Origin: Aspidiotus rigidus
Taxonomy: Eukaryota; Arthropoda; Insecta; Hemiptera; Diaspididae
Length of the DNA: 64,000 nt
Assembly: GCA_035079385.1 (NCBI GenBank)
Contig: JAVHKY010000054.1
Coordinates: forward strand, 12,501,501 to 12,565,500
Direction: 5' to 3'
Every line of letters begins with the position of its first letter. Position 1 is the stretch's first letter. The position numbers were made by a program, and so were the translations under genes. The notes beneath the pieces were generated by a model. The model ran no database searches, was not told the origin of the DNA, and saw only the letters and a program-made list of their open reading frames with translations. Positions 6,236 through 63,029 of this stretch are shown here, in pieces.

Positions 6236-7588
6236 TTAAGATTGTCCAAACGAGAAATCGCGGTGTGAATCATAAACCAGTTTGATCAGGCCATCTTCTG
6301 GAATGTACGAGTTGAGTACAGTGATACCGTCGGTGTTTAGATGAGGCATTATCTCTATATGCTCGAGGGCAATGGTCTCCTTATGGAGGAGCTTTTTGGA
6401 TCCCTCGCGGAAGCCGTGGCCACTGTTTATTAAATGATCAGCAAAAGCTGACTCCCTAAGTGTCCCTTCTTCCAAGACTTCAGGTGCTCAGCTACTCTAA
6501 CTTTCATTTGGCGGCTGGTCTCACCAATATAAAAGCCTCCACAATCCCCACATTCCAACTTTTCAACACCACTCCTCTCACCAACAGGTATGGGGTCCTT
6601 CAGTCTCACAAACAACTTCTTGACTGTGGTAGGGTTGTAATACGCGGGTCTGAAGCCAAACGGGCGGAGGGCCCGACCCAATTGGATGGAGAACTTCCCA
6701 AAGAAAGGGAGACTGATCCAACGCAAACGGCGATCACGGATCGTGTCTCGGGGGTGGGAGGTGGTGGAGTCAAGAAGGCTCCTCGTAACTTTCCTCCAAA
6801 CCATCACGTCAATATCGACATTAACGCTATTCACTCTGGCCAGGTGTTTTATTGTAACTCTTTCTTGAAGGCAGACTGACTCAAAGGAGTACGAGTCAGT
6901 CTGTGAACTAGGCTGTGAAAAGCAGCTATCTTATGAGCAACAGGACCGAACGAACCACCGTGGACTAAAACATCGGTCGTAGTATCTTTCCTGTAAATTC
7001 CAAACTTATGGATACCGTCTATCATAGAGATCGATAAATCCAAAAAGTTGATGGAAAATACCCCTATTTCCAACGTAAATTTGATGGAAGGGTACCAGGA
7101 ATTGAGATACCTCAGAAACTCACCAAGGAGATCTGCGGGACCAGTCCAGGTAAATAGAACGTCATCAACGTACCTGTGCCAATGATTAAGTAACACCTGG
7201 TTCGAGGAAAAGAGGTCAAGTTCAAACTTGGACATGAAAATTTCGGAGATGAGAGAGCCTAAGGGTGATTCGATAGGGATCCCTACTTCATCAGGAAACA
7301 CGAAAAGTTTTCCTTCAAAGTTATAGTAGTTGGGGGACCAGCAAAATATTCAGAAGATAGAAAAATTCCTGAAGCTCATCGTGAGGAATATTGGCTTTGA
7401 CGAGTAGCTCACCCATACGCTGGATAGTAGCAGCCTTTGGAATATTCGGGAACAAACCAACAACATCAAACGAGCAGATGGTCGATCCTGGGGGAAGACT
7501 TACACCCTTCAGAACGTCAGTTAAAGAGGCCGGACGTTTTTCGCGTTTATTATGGGTAGCCGTAATCTTGAGGAAGGAATTCGTTTAA
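6236..7588 (-). pseudogene. Penelope-like element: reverse transcriptase + GIY-YIG endonuclease, frameshifted
   Basis: Reading leftwards, the RT palm begins with motif A (SFDVVGLFPNIP, about 7439-7474), then a frame break near 7330. Motif B region follows (GIPIESPLGSLISEIFM), then motif C YVDD (7162-7173), NFLDLSIS, and the thumb-like FGIYRKDTTTD...HKIAAFHSLVHRL. After another frame change comes a linker and a GIY-YIG nuclease with the CxxC-type insert of Penelope elements (ECGDCGGFYIGETSRQ, about 6510-6560). After a third frame change the nuclease C-terminus runs SAFADHLINSGH...LEHIEIMP to a stop near 6236. At least three frame disruptions and a missing RT N-terminus make it inactive. In intact elements the enzymes copy the element's RNA at a nicked target. 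Confidence 0.9.
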
Positions 7589-11514: not shown

Positions 11515-13200
11515 TGATGACGTCATTGGTTGATGATGTCACGAAAGTGTATATGTTCTAAACATAGGGGTGACGAGGTCTCTGAGGTTTGTACGTTACA
11601 AAAATTTATGTAACTCAAGATTAGAGGTGATGCTGTCACTAAGGTTTGTGTGGAGACGGCGTCACAGGTTGATGACGTCACAAAAGTTTGTGTTTGGATG
11701 ATGTCACGGGTTGATGACGTCACACAAATATAAATCTCCCAAGGCTAGAGGTGATGACGTCACTGAGGTTTGTGTGGGGATGATGTCACGGGTTAATGAC
11801 GTTACAAAAGTATATAATATGCCTCAAGGTTAGGTGTGATGACGTCGCTAAAGTTTGTGTGGGATGACGTCATGGATTGATGACGTCACAAAAATTCAAA
11901 CTCCCAAGGCTAGAGTTGATGACGTCACTAAGGTTTGTGTGGGGATATGACAGGTCGATGACGTCAAAGAAGTATATAATATGCCTCAAGGTTAGAGGTG
12001 ACGACGTCACTAAGTTTGTGTAGTGATGATGTCACGGGTTGATGACGTCACAAAAGTATAAATGTCCCAAGGGTTTGTGTGGGGATGACGTCACAGGTTG
12101 ATGACGTCGCAAAAGTAATAAATTTCCCAAGGCTAGAGGTGATGACGTCACCAAGGTTTGTGTGGGCACGGGTTGATGACGTCACAAGAGTTACCTTAAG
12201 GTTAGAGGTGATGACGTTGCTAAGGTTTGTATGGGGATGACGACACAGGTTGATGACGTCACAAATATAAATGTCCCAAGGCTATAGGTGATGACATCAC
12301 TAAGGTTTGTGTGGGGATGATATCATAGATTGATGACGTCACAAAAGTATATAATATGCCTCAAGGTTAGAGGTGCTGACGTCACTATGTTTGTGTAGGG
12401 ATGATGTCACAGGTTGATGACGTCACAAAAGTATGTATGGCTCAAGGTTAGAGATGGCAACGTCGCTGAGGTTTGTGTGGGGATGACGTCACGGGTTGAT
12501 GACGTCACAAAAGTATAAATGTCCCAAGGGTTTGTGTGGGGATGACGTCACAGGTTGATGACGTCACAAAAGTATAAATGTACCTAGGCTAGAGATGATG
12601 TCGCTAAGGTTTGTGTGGGGATGACGTCACAAGTTGATGACGTCACAAATGTATAAATGTCCCAAGGCTAGAGGCGATGACGTCACCAAGGTTTGTGTGG
12701 GTACAGGTTGATGACGTCACAAGAGTTACCTTAAGGTTAGAGGTGATGATGTTTCTAAGGTTTGTGTGGGATGATGTGACGGGTTGATGACGTCACAAAA
12801 GTTAATAATATGCCTCGATGTTAGAGGTGATGACGTTGCTAAGGTTTGTATGGGTTTGATGTCACAGGCTGATGACGTCACAAATATAAATGTCCCAAGG
12901 CTAGAGGTGATGACGTCACTAAGGTTTGTGTGGGGATGATATCATAGATTGATGACGTCACAAAAGTATATAATATGCCTCAAGGTTAGAGGTAATGACG
13001 TCACTATGTTTGTGTAGGGATGATGTCACAGGTTGATGACGTCACAAAAGTATGTATGGCTCAAGGTTAGAGATGGCAACGTCGCTGAGGTTTGTGTGGG
13101 ATGACGTCACGGGTTGAAAACATCACAAAAGTGTATTATATCTCCAGATTAAGGGTGATGATGTCACTAAGGTTTGTGTGGGGTTGATGGCATCACAAAC
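11515..13200. repeat. tandem satellite with CRE-like TGACGTCA palindromes
   Basis: Roughly twenty degenerate copies of an 80-90 bp unit. A typical unit contains GATGACGTCACTAAGG, TTTGTGTGGGGATGACGTCAC, GGTTGATGACGTCACAAAAG and TATAAATGTCCCAAGGCTAG. By eye about 30 perfect TGACGTCA octamers occur in under 1.7 kb, with many one-base variants. A block around 12295-12480 recurs at about 12914-13100 (offset about 619 bp), a higher-order duplication. TGACGTCA is the full cAMP-response element bound by CREB/ATF bZIP proteins. Whether it acts as one here is untested. Confidence 0.93.
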
Positions 13201-29930: not shown

Positions 29931-31790
29931 AATTGAACGAGGATTGCAGGAACCTGTTCAAAGGGGCAACTTGGTTTTGGTATTGAGAGTTCAAAGTCTC
30001 TTTACTGTCGTATATTATGGCTCGAAAGTGGAAATTTTTCTGTATCCAAATCGTGTTTACGTCAACATTTTTTCCAAGTCCTGCTTCTTTCGTGTATTAT
30101 GGCTCAAAAGTCGAAATTTTTTGAAGTCCGAAACCTTCATTAGGGTAGATTAGTTTTCGCTGGTCGTCGCGTGGCGCACGGCGTAGCAAATTTAGTGTAC
30201 GGCAAATTTTACGAAAACCCCCCCTGGAGAATAGGTTCCCTATTGAAAGAAGAAATTACTATAAAATAATCACTTCTCTCCCTCTCTCTCATGAATTTTT
30301 CAAGTCCTCTTTTGAATAATTTGTATAGTGAAAAATTTTCAAAGTCCCTCAAATGTCCAAATTTTTCTAAGTCTCTTCTCTCTCATATATTATGGCTCGA
30401 AAGTCGAATACCTCCCAAGTCCCCCTTCTGTCGTATTGGTTCGAAAGTCGAAATTTTTCTGAGTCCAAATACTTCATGTCGACATTTTTTCATCATGTAT
30501 TATGACTCGAAAGCCGAAATTTTTCGAAGTCCAAAGCCTTCTTTAGGGTGTATGTCATTTTTTGCCGCTCACCGTACGGCGTGCGCAAATTTTTCGAAAA
30601 AAAAAAAAAAAAAAGAACAAACAAAAACAAAAAAAAACAAAACAGAACAGGTTTGAGCGAACTGCTGTAAAATAATGCGCTAAATCTCTCCCTCTCTTCG
30701 CTCATGAATTTTTCAAGTCCTCTTTTGAATACTTTGTAGTGAGAAATTTTTAAAGTCCCTCAAATGTCCAAATTTTTCTAAGTCTCTTCTCTCTCATATA
30801 TTATGGCTCGAAAGTCGAATACCTCCCAAGTCCCCCTTCTGTCGTATTGGTTCGAAAGTCGAAATTTTTCTGAGTCCAAATACTTCATGTCGACATTTTT
30901 TCATCATGTATTATGACTCGAAAGCCGAAATTTTTCGAAGTCCAAAGCCTTCTTTAGGGTGTATGTCATTTTTTGCCGCTCACCGTACGGCGTGCGCAAA
31001 TTTTTCGAAAAAAAAAAAAAAAAAAGAACAAACAAAAACAAAAAAAAACAAAACAGAACAGGTTTGAGCGAACTGCTGTAAAATAATGCGCTAAATCTCT
31101 CCCTCTCTTCGCTCATGAATTTTTCAAGTCCTCTTTTGAATACTTTGTAGTGAGAAATTTTTAAAGTCCCTCGAATGTCGAAATTTTTCCAAGTAACTTC
31201 CCTCTCATATATTATGGCTCGAAAGTCGAATACTTGCCAAGTCCCCCTTTTGTTGTATTGATTCGAAAGCCGAAATTTTTCGAAGTCCAGAACCTTCATT
31301 AGGGTATAAGTCACTTTTTGCCGCTCATTGTACGGCGTGCGGCAAATTCTTCGAAAAAAAAAAACAAAAAACAAAAAAAAATACAGAGAACAGGTTTGAA
31401 CGAATTGCTGTAAAATAATGCGCTAAATCTCTCCCTCTCTCTGCACATGAATTTTTCAAGTATCCTCCCTCTCGTATATTACTCGAAAGTCGATTACTTC
31501 CCAAGTCCCCCCCTTCTGTCGTATTGGTTCGAAAGTCGAAATTTTTCTGAGTCCAAATCCTTCATGTCGACATGTTTTCATCATGTATTGTGTATGATTC
31601 GAAAGCCGAAATTTTTCGAAGTCCAAATCCTTCGTTAGGGTATAGGTCAGTTTTTGCCGCTCATCGTACGGCGTGCGGCGAATTTTTAGAAAAAAAAAAC
31701 GAGAATAGGTTTGAACGAATTGCTATAAAATAATGCGCTAAATCTCTCCCTCTCTCTGCTCTTGAATTTTCCAAGTCTTCCTCTGAAACT
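29930..31790. repeat. tandem array, about 411-bp unit, about four copies
   Basis: Units start with ATGAATTTTTCAAGTCC at 30291, 30704, 31115 and 31447. Each contains TATTATGGCTCGAAAGTCG, CCGAAATTTTTCGAAGTCC, a GCCGCTCAyCGTACGGCGTGCG block and an A-rich stretch. Two neighbouring units (about 30355-30765 and 30766-31176) look identical over almost their whole length. The outer ones diverge and the fourth is shortened. Partial units extend from 29985. Open frames inside are repeat artefacts. Confidence 0.93.
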
Positions 31791-34990: not shown

Positions 34991-35179
34991 ATGGAAGATG
35001 AAGGTAATCATGGTAACGATGAAATTCGCTCGTTTGTGTTGTCGAATCTGACCGCCCACCACCAATCGAAAGTGCTGTGCGTATTGTGTAGCGCACCGAT
35101 GAAGGTTTACGATCGGTATCCGCTGATTGATGGAACATTCTTCCTGAGTCCGGTCAGACACGCCAAAGGAAGTGTTGAG
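34991..35179 (+). CDS. hdc: headcase (HECA/hdc) internal coding exon, first in window
   Basis: The exon encodes 63 residues beginning MEDEGNHGND. It carries a CxxC pair (CVLC) about 30 residues in, followed by a DGTFFLSPVRH segment. This matches the start of the C-terminal cysteine-rich part of Headcase, where human HECA has an equivalent MEDD...CALC...DGTLFLSPSRH run (from memory of the family). Headcase is a cytoplasmic regulator of imaginal-cell proliferation and tracheal branching in Drosophila, and is linked to Unkempt and mTOR signalling. The exon is bounded by a TTACAG acceptor ending at 34990 and a GAG|GTAATT donor at 35180, and both ends are phase 0. The ATG directly after the acceptor is probably an internal methionine, because in the human protein this methionine lies deep in the chain. 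Upstream exons with the N-terminal Headcase domain were not found. Confidence 0.92.
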
Positions 35180-37129: not shown

Positions 37130-38045
37130 AACTCATTGGTTCTCTAACGGAGTTAAACGAGGGGAGGCAGGGAACCTGTTTTATGGGGCATGTTGGACCT
37201 GAAAAATGTAGATTGTGACGTCACAGGCTCCGCTCCCAAGCTACATATTATAGGAGCGGACTTGGAGAAGGACTTAAAATTGCCGAGCTCCGAGCTTTAC
37301 CGGATGGCGGACGTTTGTTGTGACCTCCCCGATGAAACAGGTTGCCTGTTGAAACAGTATTTTTAGCCAAGCGGGGAACCTGTTTTATCGGGAGTTTTTC
37401 AGAAAAAACCTCCGCTTTCCGGCCAGCCGGCAAAGCTTGGAGCTCGAAAATGTTCTAAGCGCACCTCTAAATTCCTCTGCTATCATATATAGCTTGTGGG
37501 CGGGGCCTGTGACGTCACTGTTTGATAACGTCATAGGTCAGCCTCGTGACGTCACAATCTGATGACGTCATAGATCCACTTTTTCCAAGTTTCCTTCCTA
37601 TTATACATAGCTCCAAAGTCCGGGATTTTGACGTTACAATTTGATGACTTTATACGTCAACCTTTTGACATCTCAATCTGATGACGTCATCAGTTTTGTT
37701 CAAGTTCCTCTCCTATCATGTATAGCTACAAAGTCAGGGTTTGTGACGTCACAATTTGATGACTTCATATGTCAACCTGGTGACGTCACAATATGATGAC
37801 GTCATAGATCCATTTTTCTCAAGTTCCTTCCTATTATATACAGTTTTAAAGTTCGGGACTCTGTTCATACGTCAATTTTGTGACGTCACAAGCTGATGAC
37901 GTCATCAGCTTTTTTCAAGTTCCTCTCCTATTATGTATAGCTACAAAGACCGGGACTGTGACGTCATGATTTGATGACTTCTCAGGTCAGCCTTGTGACG
38001 TCACAATCTACATTTTTCAGATCCCACGTGTGCCATAAAACAAGG
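37130..38045. repeat. dispersed TGACGTCA-bearing composite repeat
   Basis: Begins GGTTCTCTAACGGAGTTAAAC, then GAACCTGTTTTATGGGGC and a GAACCTGTTTTATCGGGAG module. Three to four tandem subunits follow of the pattern CCTATyATgTATAGCT...TGTGACGTCACAATyTGATGACGTCAT. Several perfect TGACGTCA sites are present. Confidence 0.85.
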
Positions 38046-42298: not shown

Positions 42299-42487
42299 GT
42301 CGCGAAAGACAATCGCCGCCAATTTCTCAGTGGAATTTGTATGCGCTGTTTGGAAGCGTTCGCACCTGGTAGCCGAGTGCGATGCATTTACTGCAATAAA
42401 GCCTTCGACGGTGGCTCCATGGTTTTGGGAACCATGTACACGTACGACGTTTTCGCAGCCATGCCTTGCTGCCAGGATCGTGTCAAA
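42299..42487 (+). CDS. hdc: headcase (HECA/hdc) internal coding exon, second in window
   Basis: Another 63-codon phase-0 exon, with acceptor TTTCCAG ending at 42298 and donor AAA|GTGAGT at 42488. It reads VAKDNRRQFLSGICMRCLEA and continues to a second pair CIYC, then GTMYTYDVFAAMPCCQDRVK. The GTMYTYD...A..PCCQ block is the most recognisable signature of the Headcase C-terminal domain. The CxxC pairs (residues 77/80 and 92/95, numbered from the previous exon's first residue) and the CC pair (120/121) suggest treble-clef-like zinc binding. That is inferred from spacing; I see no closer relation to a standard RING or FYVE finger. It joins the previous exon in frame as ...GSVE|VAKD... with no lost residue. 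Confidence 0.95.
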
Positions 42488-46898: not shown

Positions 46899-47035
46899 AG
46901 CGTCGTTCACACTAGCGTTTTACAGTCGATAACGCCGCGTTATTTTTATTTTCCTGGTCTGGGGTTGGACCGGTTCAACTTTAACGCGGCGTTATGTGAT
47001 ATAAAGCGGAAAATTACGCTAGTGTGAACGACGCT
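46899..47035. mobile_element. 137-bp foldback MITE, AGCGTCGTTCACACTAGCGT ends
   Basis: The terminal 20 bases are perfect inverted repeats. A second inner pair, ATAACGCCGCGTTA and TAACGCGGCGTTAT, is also perfect, so nearly the whole element can fold into one hairpin. Flanking target duplication unclear. Confidence 0.82.
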
Positions 47036-48098: not shown

Positions 48099-48254
48099 TG
48101 TACCGGATGCCAAACTCCGCTATTATTACCTCACGAACGACTAAATTTCTACAGCGATTACAGTCGTCTGATCATCTGTCCGCAATGCGGTACAAAGGAC
48201 TACCATTTCGTGCGCCCAATTTCGACGTGTTACGCCTTGGAGAGTCCCACATAA
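48099..48254 (+). CDS. hdc: headcase (HECA/hdc) exon ending at first (leaky) UAA
   Basis: The acceptor TCTTACAG ends at 48098 and the exon opens CTGCQTPLLLPHERLNFYSD, directly continuing ...CCQDRVK from the previous exon. It holds two more CxxC pairs (CTGC; CPQC) and the terminal Headcase motif CGTKDYHFVRPIS. The human protein ends shortly after the equivalent HCGNLDYHFVKPFS segment. The frame stops at TAA 48252-48254 after ...CYALESPT. This gives 51 residues here and 177 over the three exons, so the short product has the canonical Headcase C-terminus. The apparent ATG ORF upstream (from 47865) is intron sequence containing a 31-base T tract, not exon. Confidence 0.95.
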   Translation, partial: CTGCQTPLLLPHERLNFYSDYSRLIICPQCGTKDYHFVRPISTCYALESPT

Positions 48255-48317
48255 CAATTATTTGAGGATACCCCCGTCAGCCTCGAGCACGTTCTCCAGG
48301 GGGGTCCTTCCTCAAGT
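48252..48317 (+). promoter_or_regulatory. stop-codon readthrough signal: UAA-CAAUUA context plus hairpin
   Basis: The stop and next two codons are UAA CAA UUA. The hexanucleotide after the stop fits the CAR-YYA consensus of TMV-type leaky stops exactly. After a five-base spacer comes a stem in which 48260-48268 pairs with 48309-48317 (9 bp including one G.U). Next is a 1/3-base internal loop, then 48270-48275 (ACCCCC) pairs with 48300-48305 (GGGGGU). The apical loop is about 24 bases. Drosophila hdc readthrough is known to depend on an RNA stem-loop just 3' of the UAA; position and size here agree. The pairing was drawn by eye, not computed as a minimum free energy structure. Confidence 0.85.
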
Positions 48318-49052
48318 CAAGCACCGAACGTATCTATAACCGACGACTTTACCTTGAAACGTAATACGGATTCATCAGCCAGCCCGCTTGTCGTCAAACC
48401 TAAGCCAATACGTCACGTGAATAATAATAACAACAATAACAATAATAAAATGCTCGTCAAAAGTCCGGGTAGTTACGCGAAGAACGCCGCTACAAATCCG
48501 CAGCAATCGAATACATTTCTCGGCAGTACCAACGTTTACACCGGTAATGGGATTCCGAGTTTGAACTTGGATATGAATTCGAATAATGTAAGCGCCAATT
48601 ATCCTATAACTTTGAATTCGTTGATTGCGAATTTGAACGGTGGTGGTGGCAGCGTTAGCAGTCCGGAAACGACACGGAATTTCATCGGTCGTTCGCGGTA
48701 CGATCCGAATTCGCCGAGTTCGAGTTCAACATCGAGTTTCGAGATGACGGCGGACGCGACGAGTCCGCTAGCGTCGACTACTTTCTTCTCCAATACGAAT
48801 CATAATACAGTAAAGCCCAACTTCGGTCCGAAAACGATGAAAATCGCGACCGAATTGGGGGAGAATAACGACTTCCTGCGGCTAAGCAATGTTACACCTA
48901 ATATCAAAGACGAATTGGAATCGAGTTTTGTGGCCATCAATTCGCCGACCAGGCGTACCGCGGTCGATGACAATGATAATAATATGCATCACTTCTGGGA
49001 CGCCAGAATGAAGGATATCGCCGAGGCGATGAACTATCTGGAGTTGATTTAA
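48255..49052 (+). CDS. hdc: headcase readthrough extension (265 codons, stop-codon readthrough)
   Basis: The codons after the TAA at 48252 stay open in the same frame for 265 residues to a second TAA (49050-49052). The extension starts QLFEDTPVSLEHVLQGG. It is rich in Asn, Ser, Thr and Pro, includes a run of nine Asn encoded by mixed AAT/AAC around 48420-48449, and ends in a more ordered segment with HHFWDARMKDIAEAMNYLEL. A 798-base open frame in AT-rich DNA exactly in phase with the upstream exon is strong evidence for translation. Established knowledge: Drosophila hdc makes a short and a long protein by UAA readthrough, and the long form is needed in the trachea. The extension here is shorter than I recall for the fly protein. 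I infer a disordered regulatory tail; no catalytic domain is visible. Confidence 0.85.
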   Translation, partial: QLFEDTPVSLEHVLQGGPSSSQAPNVSITDDFTLKRNTDSSASPLVVKPKPIRHVNNNNNNNNNKMLVKSPGSYAKNAATNPQQSNTFLGSTNVYTGNGIPSLNLDMNSNNVSANYPITLNSLIANLNGGGGSVSSPETTRNFIGRSRYDPNSPSSSSTSSFEMTADATSPLASTTFFSNTNHNTVKPNFGPKTMKIATELGENNDFLRLSNVTPNIKDELESSFVAINSPTRRTAVDDNDNNMHHFWDARMKDIAEAMNYLELI

Positions 49053-50570
49053 TATTTTTTTATTCTTCGAAATTTTGCACTTCTCTCAGGGGTTTATTAT
49101 TATTATTATTATTATTGTTTTTTATATATATATTTTTATTTTCCGAACGAGTTATACCGGTGTTCTCGCCAGATATTACGAATTTTTATCTCTATCAATA
49201 ATACAAACGAATTTGTAAATTTTGTATATTAATTAGTGATGGCTCTCTTTTAGTTAGTTGTGTTTTGTTTCTTCCTCACCTCTCGTCGTGTAATTAAAAG
49301 TTTGACCTTTCGTCATCGTCGTCTTCTTTTTTTCCTTTCCCTTTATTTTCGTTTTCTGTTTTATCATTTTCGTGTATAATACTAGTCAACGATTTATTAT
49401 TATTATTTTTTGTCTATAAAACAATCATCTGTTTTTTTCATCGATTATCGAGATATGATGTGTATAGACGGGAATAATTATTGTTCGTTGTTATATATTA
49501 TTCCTGTTTCGTGTTTATTATTTTTTTATCTCTTTTTTCTTTTATTGAAACTCATCTTTAGCTTCATCTGTTAGTCTGTTTTTCTTTTTTTCTTCCCCTT
49601 ATATTCCTACATTTTGTAGTACGCGAGAGTTTAAATTTTACTTTTTCTTCTCTCTCCTATATTTGTACACTTACCGAGTACTTAATTAGAAGAATATGAG
49701 TAGCGTATATTTTGGTTGGTGAAGTGCACATTGATTTATTTTTACTTTTTTTCGAAGGGACTTCGCAAAGACTAAGAAGTTGCAATTTTCTGGACGACGT
49801 GTGTATTTGGTACGGATGACCAACCTTTTGGTTTAGAATACGGTTAATTGTAAAATTATGCCCCTCCTGTCCCAGGTTTGGACTAGAATATTGTAGGAAA
49901 TATTTCATTAATTTTCTCCAGATGTTATCTTTTTGTTGACTAGTTGTATTTTAGAAGATTGATATTACGAGATGACTGGCATCAATAAGAATGGAATATT
50001 TCCCTGGATTTTTAATCGCGAGTTCCGACCCAAGTCGTTCTCTGGTGTAAAATTTTATCCTGAATGAAGCTCAGACCCTCCAACCGACAAGGAGGACGTT
50101 TTCTTGAAGTGCTGTCAGAGTAAAACCTCAACTTGGTACGGACTCTTTCTCATTTTGATGCATGATTGACTTTTTTCTTGTCATTATGGCCTCTTTTCGA
50201 ACCCAATCTACATTCATCTTTTCCTCATTTCCGGATGTTGGTCCAAGAAAAATGTACCAAATGATGGTGGGGTGTAGATGAAACTTGACATGATTGTCAG
50301 TCAATGTGTCCTAATGAACCCATGAAAACCTTGCACTCCCTGATATACACACCACCCACTATAGGGAAATAAGTGCCTCCTTCAGCTGTTTTTTGGTATC
50401 ACCTCGATAAATATCAATTTTCAAGCGGTAGTTATTTTCCTGTGGTTGGTTCCGCCTAAAGTAGAGAGAGGAGTTGAAGGGCTCAGTAGGATCGAGTAAC
50501 TGACGATTGCGCCCAGTTTCAACTTTACTCGATTCATTTTTGGCCAAAGTGCTCATCTTTCTTGAAGTTT
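49053..50570 (+). other. start of headcase 3' UTR, extent unknown
   Basis: Sequence after the second stop is T-rich and unique, with short ATT repeats (49090-49113) and no recognised coding frame. No convincing AATAAA with a downstream GT-rich element was found close to the stop. AATAAA hexamers occur at 52484, 53590 and 57035. Drosophila hdc has a long 3' UTR, so the transcript may run several kilobases. The end cannot be fixed from sequence alone. Confidence 0.5.
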
Positions 50571-61018: not shown

Positions 61019-63029
61019 CAGGGTGAGGCCAAAAGATGTTACCAGTTGAATGGAAGTTTGCGTTAAATCTGTTGTAGCGCAAAAACACGAAACTTTAGAC
61101 GGATACTTCAAATCTACAAAATTCGCATCCCAATTTTATCTTCAATTTGCGCCGAATACGAAGTTCCTACGTCTTCTCTGAGCCGAGTTATGGACCAAAA
61201 TGTGCCGAAAATTCAACAATTTGCCAGGGTTCCCAAAATAGGACTTGAAAATTAATTAATTTACAGTATTGAGCTGAATTTCGAACACTCCGATCATTTA
61301 ATTACTGTTCCTGAAGTGAAATTTTACGGGGAAAACGAAAAAAATAGTCACAGAATACTGCGAAGCACAAAAATGGGTTAATGAGCCCAAAATGGGTCAA
61401 AATGTCTCAAAGTTGGAAAATCGCTAATTTTATTCAATTCTTCAGTAAAATTTTGCGCTGAGTTCGAAAAAATCACCCAAATCACCCTGCGAAGCCTGAA
61501 AATGGATGTACGGCCCAAAGAGGGTCAAAATTCCCTCAAATAAAAAAATTGCGTAATCTTCAAAAATTTAGTAGAATTCTGAAGTAAAATCTCGTGCTCA
61601 GTCTGAAAAAATCACCCAAATCATCTTACGAAGCCTGAAAATGGATGTACGGCCCCAAAGAGGGTCAAAATTTCCTTAAAGAAAAAATTGCCTCATCATC
61701 AAAATTTTGTACACTTTACTAGTGAAATTTCACGCTCACAAGTTGAAAGATCGCTCAAATTTTCATATTTTATTCGCGATTCTCTTGCGAAATTGAGCTT
61801 AGTTCGACTAAGGCCCTGAGTATGATTGAAGCTGGTGGAAGACTCGTTGTTTCAGACGATGAGGGAAAACATGGAACTAAGAAGCTTGTCTTCCGTTGTA
61901 AACTCGCAATGAAAAATTAGCCAGAGTGCCTCTATCGATGAAAGCGGGCAAGAATGTGATCATTCTTGTTGTGTCAGTCGAAAGAGTGAATTTTCAGGGA
62001 ATTGGGGGGATTTTGACCCTCTTTGGGCCCGTACATCCATTTCGAAGCTTCGTAGGGTGATTTGGGTGATTTTTCCGGACTCGGCACGAAATTTTAACTC
62101 GAATTCTACTAAATTTTCGAAGATCACGCAATTTTTTTATTTGGGTGATTTTTTCGGACTCAGCACGAAATTTTATTTCAGAACTCTACTAAATTTTCGA
62201 AGATCCCGCAATTTTTTTATTAGCGGGAATTTTGACCCACTTCGGGCCCGTACATCCATTTTCAGGCTTCGTAAGGTGATTTGGGTGATTTTTTCGGACT
62301 CGGCACCAAATTTTATTTCGAATTCTACTAAATTTTCGAAGATCCCGCAATTTTTTTATTAGCGGGAATTTTGACCCTCATTGGGCCCGTACATCCATTT
62401 CGAAGCTTCGTAGGGTGATTTGGGTGATTTTTCCGGATTCGGCACGAAATTTTATTTCGAATTCTACTAAATTTTTGAAGATCACGCAATTTTTTTATTT
62501 GGGGGAATTTTGAACTTCTTTGGGCCCGTACATCCATTTTCAGGCTTCGTAAGGTGATTTGGGTGATTTTTTTGGACTCAGCACGAAATTTTACTTCAGA
62601 ATTCTACTAAATTTTCGAAGATCACGCAATTTTTTTATTAGCGGGAATTTTGACCCTTTTTGGGCCCGTACATCCGTGTTGAAGCTTCGTGGGGTGATTC
62701 GGGTTGGTTTTTCAGACTCAGCGCGAAATTTTACTTCAGAATTGTACAGAATTTCAAAGATCAAGCAATTTTTTAAAACAGAATCATGTTTTGTTTTCAT
62801 AATTGAACACTTTGGGAACCCCTGCAGCAAAATTTCGGCACGTTTTGGTCCATAACTCGGCTCAGAAAAGTCGTAGAAACTTCGTATTGGGCGCAAATTA
62901 AAGATAAAATTGAGATGCGAATTTCGTAGATTTGAAGTACACATCTAACGTTTCGCGTTGCGTTTTTGCGCTACGACAGATTTAACGCAAACTCCCATTT
63001 AACTGGTAACATCTTTTGGCCTCACCCTG
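61019..63029. mobile_element. 2-kb foldback element inserted at TA, with internal satellite
   Basis: Terminal inverted repeats of about 190 bp start CAGGGTGAGGCCAAAAGATG. The neighbouring repeat copy at 60966 (GAGCTATATATGATGGG) shows the unfilled site. The flanks GAGCTATA and TATATGATAGG then imply a 2-bp TA duplication, as in Tc1/mariner-type elements. Inside the right arm a 138-140 bp unit (GGGCCCGTACATCCA at about 62025, 62243, 62384, 62522, 62662) is tandemly repeated. Inverted copies lie in the left arm near 61510 and 61645. No transposase frame seen. Confidence 0.87.

Follow-up and report, generated by a model that had tools for sequence, protein, structure and literature searches.

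Does translation of the headcase gene in the scale insect Aspidiotus rigidus end at its first stop codon, or is the open frame behind that stop translated as well? The question was raised by a stretch of 64,000 nucleotides (the window; C54:12501501-12565500 of contig 54), in which the last headcase exon ends at an in-frame TAA and the same frame then stays open for 265 codons. The best explanation is programmed readthrough of the UAA, by which headcase would yield a 476-aa and a 742-aa form; we give it a probability of about 0.84. Readthrough itself is what we infer from the gene model and the extension described below.

The canonical part of the gene was placed as follows.

C54:12386980-12387776 (L013:5480-6276), headcase exon 1, with the ATG; from the 200 kb searched upstream of the window
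C54:12456852-12456951 (L006:5352-5451), headcase exon 2; from the same 200 kb
34991..35179, plus strand, headcase coding exon 3 of 5, 63 codons, phase 0 at both ends; tblastn with the Headcase of the mealybug Planococcus citri (P0009, 480 aa), splice sites and frame
42299..42487, plus strand, headcase coding exon 4, 63 codons, phase 0 at both ends, donor AAA/GTGAGT; tblastn with P0009
48099..48251, plus strand, last exon, canonical C-terminal part, acceptor TTACAG/TGT, ending in ...ALESPT; PF16002 and P. citri
48252..48254, plus strand, first stop codon TAA, the proposed readthrough stop; sequence

These five exons are collinear with P. citri headcase isoform X1. The frame from ATG to UAA is complete and comprises 476 codons interrupted by four introns, all of them GT...AG, and the coding part extends over about 164 kb. 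Six splice variants keep the frame; the chosen one uses the best-looking sites (CCC/GTGAGT, TTTCAG/ and AAG/GTAAGG), and in the other five the donor of exon 1, of exon 2 or of both is less good. The short form thus has 476 aa and the long form 742 aa (476, one residue at the UAA, and 265). The 51-aa last exon has one match in the genome (441 Mb, 102 contigs). Its Headcase identity was established with Pfam PF16002 (E 2.8e-12, 47 bits against a cutoff of 27, profile positions 158-198 of 198), and 41 of its 51 codons (80%) specify the same residue as the C-terminus of the P. citri protein, whose last residue corresponds to the one just before TAA 48252-48254. By this homology, the shared end residue together with the PF16002 match, headcase normally ends at the first TAA, and the original prediction that the Headcase C-terminus ends at UAA 48252 is borne out.

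Other features of the window were recorded as well. A short element in the last headcase intron (46899-47035) looks like a MITE: its terminal inverted repeats are perfect over 20 nt (AGCGTCGTTCACACTAGCGT), and a further, inner inverted repeat is imperfect (78%). On the minus strand at 6430-7349 there are two overlapping ORFs. One has a weak reverse transcriptase match (RVT_1, E 0.0035; 17.5 bits, where the cutoff is 29.6); the other, without a Pfam family, by eye resembles a GIY-YIG endonuclease, and the pair may be the remnant of a Penelope-like element. Tandem arrays at 11628-13189 and 37508-37838, with units of 42 to 375 bases, are dense in TGACGTCA-like palindromes, which we take to have a CRE-like core. 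Long tandem repeats lie at 30275-31289 and 61436-62774, with a 411-base unit at 96% match and 139-base units at 81-88%.

Behind the first stop, the following features were marked.

48255..49049, plus strand, readthrough extension of 265 codons; open frame, periodicity, 8 relatives
49050..49052, plus strand, second stop codon TAA, end of the long form; sequence, and a homologous end residue in 8/8 relatives
49293..49298, plus strand, first polyadenylation-signal-like hexamer 3' of the long form; pattern only

The frame had been predicted to be open from the UAA to 49050, and it is: the extension, which runs directly into TAA 49050-49052, is the longest stop-free stretch of the window in six frames (runner-up, 191 codons). 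Depending on whether bases are taken as independent or as a first-order Markov chain, the chance of remaining open over 265 codons at the given composition is about 5e-7 or 6e-6, and none of 20000 Markov simulations did so. The two other forward frames across the extension hold 18 and 20 stops. The 3-base periodicity of the extension (G = 74.6) was equalled at 1 of 2107 plus-strand positions sampled every 30 bases, and that sole position starts at 48271, within the extension itself. When the Asn tract was left out, the value was 63.4, compared with a maximum of 22.4 among 2000 shuffles.

The signal is not spread evenly along the frame. Periodicity was strong in three later stretches of the extension, with 0, 0 and 1 per 1000 shuffles as high; elsewhere in the window the same or higher values were found at 28/6284, 23/6284 and 21/6285 positions, respectively. 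In codons 1-55 (48255-48419) periodicity was absent: values as high came up in 430 of 1000 shuffles and at 2812 of 6288 positions elsewhere. The first in-frame ATG of the extension is at 48450 (residue 66), and the 65 codons from the UAA to this ATG had a 3-5% chance of staying open. The extension itself had no Pfam match at E 1. An antisense ORF at 48375-48725, for which no Pfam family was found at E 0.01, was interpreted as a by-product of the coding frame on the opposite strand. These observations support the reading of the long second ORF behind the headcase stop as coding sequence, most weakly for codons 1-55. The earlier description of the extension as clearly non-random coding sequence accordingly stands for the whole, on openness, periodicity and relatives, and is weakest for codons 1-55, which taken alone lack periodicity.

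Relatives were sought with the extension alone, and four were found among 674 candidates (E 2.7e-7 to 2.2e-4). A profile of these four, which recovered its founders by construction, brought four further ones (E 2.3e-41 to 1.5e-22) among 7992 scored candidates. Candidates were picked by shared five-residue words, a choice that favours the best conserved stretch, and their length was limited to 0.55-1.75 times that of the query, so that long fusions were excluded. The alignment has nine rows, the window extension and all eight relatives; the rows are not independent, as P0004 to P0007 are closely alike. The one named relative, P0003, is hypothetical protein PGB90_006585 of the lac insect Kerria lacca; likeness to this species and to P. 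citri is what a scale-insect gene would show.

All nine sequences share the C-terminal end point, and of the last 19 columns (FWDARxKDIAxAMxYLELI) 16 are identical in 9/9. The centre of the extension also holds residues identical in 9/9 (P.TLNS, G131, P137 and N142), and a block PLxDLNF is common to most rows, of which the window retains part only. The proposal that the long form has a C-terminal segment of its own, conserved as a motif, is therefore upheld by these invariant columns. The two terminal features are:

48993..49049, plus strand, conserved C-terminal module FWDARMKDIAEAMNYLELI; 16/19 columns identical in 9/9 sequences
48972..49046, plus strand, predicted C-terminal helix, extension residues 240-264; AlphaFold2 on the 9-row alignment

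The AlphaFold2 model of the extension, run on the 9-row alignment, is mostly of low confidence (mean pLDDT 50, pTM 0.20, 178 of 265 residues below 50). The terminal helix stands out with mean pLDDT values of 82 (residues 241-250), 92 (251-260) and 79 (261-265); a second short helix is predicted at low confidence for residues 120-127. According to the model, the tail would be a mostly disordered chain with one confident terminal helix. A Foldseek search with the model gave no match at E 10, a result of little weight since the model is mostly of low confidence, and no sequence relative of the P. citri Headcase was found in the PDB at E 0.01. An amphipathic character is not claimed for the terminal helix, its hydrophobic moment being 0.25 over the last 20 residues, with 37% of shuffles as high. 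Of the whole tail the terminal module is best conserved, which makes it the likeliest working end; it probably docks a partner. Its invariant -ELI end resembles a class III PDZ ligand.

If the extension is coding, by which route do ribosomes enter it? One answer would be that ribosomes start anew inside it, at ATG 48450 or elsewhere, so that the extension would be an independent coding unit of some alternative or shortened transcript. That ATG is the first in frame, and significant periodicity was found only in tested stretches after it. The Kerria lacca piece is annotated as a protein of its own, and P0002, P0005, P0007 and P0008, which begin at or after the region of residue 66, are silent on a start there. 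Among the four relatives that extend across residue 66 (P0001, P0003, P0004 and P0006), none has a Met at this place; the first Met after their database start falls at window residue 252, 182, 236 and 110, respectively. The extension frame is moreover continuous with Headcase, and the similarity of P0006 begins at residue 13, that is, 53 codons upstream of ATG 48450 (18/48 identical, pairwise E 3e-8).

Close to the stop the other relatives contribute less. P0004 aligned weakly from residue 26 (10/32, E 0.035), and P0003 gave a short match (IKRNTES vs LKRNTDS, 5/7, E 0.066). The matches of P0001 and P0008 were at chance level (E 0.34 and 0.46), and P0002, P0005 and P0007 had no match to the near-stop part of the extension. 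Fewer sequences cover this part, since database proteins begin at a start codon. Coding conservation near the stop thus depends mainly on one relative, P0006. As judged from these alignments, the evidence against an internal start is fair, not strong, and we consider such a start improbable.

The relatives also bear on the connection with Headcase. The Headcase C-terminus is absent from 8/8 relatives, although the candidates were length-limited and entries may start at an internal codon. Such an absence would follow from a stop in front of the extension, and it is weaker evidence than its appearance suggests. A search of longer proteins (about 467-1487 aa, 4741 candidates) gave no long Headcase form carrying the extension; its two matches were the P. 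citri and Musca autumnalis Headcases, alike only before the stop. When the loci of the relatives were sought in viral contigs and genome contigs, 91 and 38 pattern matches were obtained, of which none was confirmed.

Two database entries deserve mention in their own right. In the Musca autumnalis headcase-like isoform X1 (P0010) the conserved C-terminus is followed by another tail, KCLTGRLSAIA, and flies may therefore have an alternative last exon of headcase. PGB90_006585 of Kerria lacca, the presumed readthrough part of headcase, is annotated as a separate hypothetical protein; the separate entry is probably an annotation artefact, which may recur in other insects.

The surroundings of the stop were examined for signals known from readthrough systems, and two were marked.

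48255..48260, plus strand, CAATTA, a CARYYA readthrough hexamer at +4 to +9; sequence
48260..48317, plus strand, predicted RNA hairpin at +9 to +66, -22.9 kcal/mol; folding

The CARYYA context is reported to stimulate readthrough (PMC4132726), and UAA is described as the tightest stop, also within this context (PMC4132726, PMC13170385). In the window, 4 of 2598 TAA trinucleotides on both strands, that at 48252 included, are followed by such a hexamer. None of 299 windows of 58 nt, taken every 3 bases across 48099-49052, was as stable as the predicted hairpin, and 13 of 6395 sampled positions of the window were at least as stable. Synonymous recodings folded as well in 53 of 2000 cases with the gene's own codon usage and in 36 of 2000 with uniform usage, and dinucleotide shuffles in 19 of 1000. 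Over 149 nt the excess was less marked: z was -1.5, and 16 of 200 shuffles reached the same stability. Rfam placed nothing in the window at gathering scores. Support for the predicted hairpin is thus moderate.

A further route around the stop would be an alternative splice, either from exon 4 to an acceptor downstream of the UAA or through a small intron within the last exon. AGs with 9/12 pyrimidines before them are present at 48287 (in frame) and at 48321; the real headcase acceptors in the window score 10, 9 and 7, so that the pyrimidine score does not discriminate. The list comprises AGs at this level, and weaker acceptors might work as well. Skipping to 48287 would remove the whole 51-residue Headcase part of the last exon, 80% identical in P. 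citri, which makes this path unlikely, yet possible. The AG at this site is preceded by G (GAG), an unfavourable context for an acceptor. The best donor-like GT in 48099-48252 scores at most 4/9, compared with 8/9 for the donor of exon 4, and for lack of a better one it is unlikely that a small intron spans the UAA. The original prediction had named a spliced isoform that removes the stop as one of the findings that would refute it. Such an isoform is unlikely to arise from an intron across the UAA, where no good donor was found, while the acceptor score leaves 48287 and 48321 possible; overall, we would not expect splicing to be the route. It is very improbable that an assembly error or a recent nonsense mutation has put the UAA into what is normally one long chain, even though the window rests on a single assembly: the P. 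citri Headcase ends at the homologous residue, the relatives and the longer-protein search offer no joined form, and the stop directly precedes the readthrough hexamer.

Programmed readthrough of the headcase UAA is therefore the best route to the extension, given the stop hexamer and hairpin, the lack of a good donor across the stop and a similarity that sets in well before the first ATG. Most ribosomes would terminate at UAA 48252 and release the 476-aa Headcase. A ribosome may pause at the UAA before the hairpin, and the CAAUUA context may lower the efficiency of release. In a fraction of passages a near-cognate tRNA would be accepted and the UAA decoded as an amino acid, after which 265 further codons would be translated to give the 742-aa form. 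The conserved terminal helix, as a proposed protein-docking module, would be displayed on the readthrough form only. On a more speculative note, the tail might add a contact to an Unkempt-bound complex or relocate that complex.

It is plausible that readthrough of headcase was present in an ancestor in common with flies and that the mechanism has been kept. A more ambitious proposal would make it older than the split between Hemiptera and flies and kept in order to show the conserved helix FWDARxKDIAxAMxYLELI-COOH, with the helix or its -ELI docking a partner and failure of the stop serving as an interaction switch. We offer it tentatively and regard it as doubtful in this full form.

The closest known system is headcase itself in Drosophila, where the long form is made by UAA readthrough (PMC2754532, PMC4161320) at a reported 20% in larval tracheal cells (PMC2754532). 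The programmed readthrough of hdc goes back to Steneberg et al. 1998 and Steneberg and Samakovlis 2001, as cited in PMC2754532, PMC8417969, PMC3609751 and PMC4161320. Placed in other genes, the hdc stem-loop is reported to bring about readthrough there too (PMC3609751); PMC13170385 calls it unclear if structure or sequence is at work in the fly gene. The fly short form, as FLAG-HdcS, binds Unkempt (PMC4161320). The A. rigidus locus resembles Drosophila melanogaster hdc, as far as the latter is described in these sources, in the gene, the UAA stop, the in-frame second ORF and the stem-loop region after the stop. Unlike Drosophila hdc, it belongs to a hemipteran scale insect, with an extension of 265 codons, a C-terminal module conserved among the relatives found, and readthrough deduced from sequence.

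Drosophila dfr has the hexamer CAA UCA and a stem-loop at +9 to +59, whose distance and stability mattered in reporters (PMC13170385). Headcase shares with it a CARYYA-class hexamer at +4 to +9 (here CAA UUA) and a predicted stable hairpin from +9. The genes are unrelated and the reported dfr stop is UAG; the dfr hairpin (+9 to +59) was tested experimentally, whereas that of headcase (+9 to +66) is predicted. A stop followed by CAAUUA is also of the tobacco-mosaic-virus type of CARYYA signal (PMC4132726, PMC3609751). In contrast to that type, the stop is UAA, reported to be less leaky with CARYYA than UAG or UGA, and the gene is a cellular insect gene with a hairpin. Abundant readthrough has been reported in most insects tested and in one crustacean, but not in Tribolium castaneum or Apis mellifera (PMC5100048).

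For headcase beyond flies, no report of readthrough was found in the open-licence main texts examined, though one may be listed elsewhere; on the gene in Hemiptera, a whitefly expression study came up. The present locus would thus add a case of headcase readthrough in another insect order, with the same gene, stop and kind of signals, and with a terminal module that appears to be undescribed in the literature examined. To judge from the Kerria lacca entry, in which the extension stands alone as a hypothetical protein, annotation can split headcase. Drosophila hdc is a classic case of functional readthrough; hemipteran headcase provides a distant species for comparison and a testable part, the last 19-25 residues.
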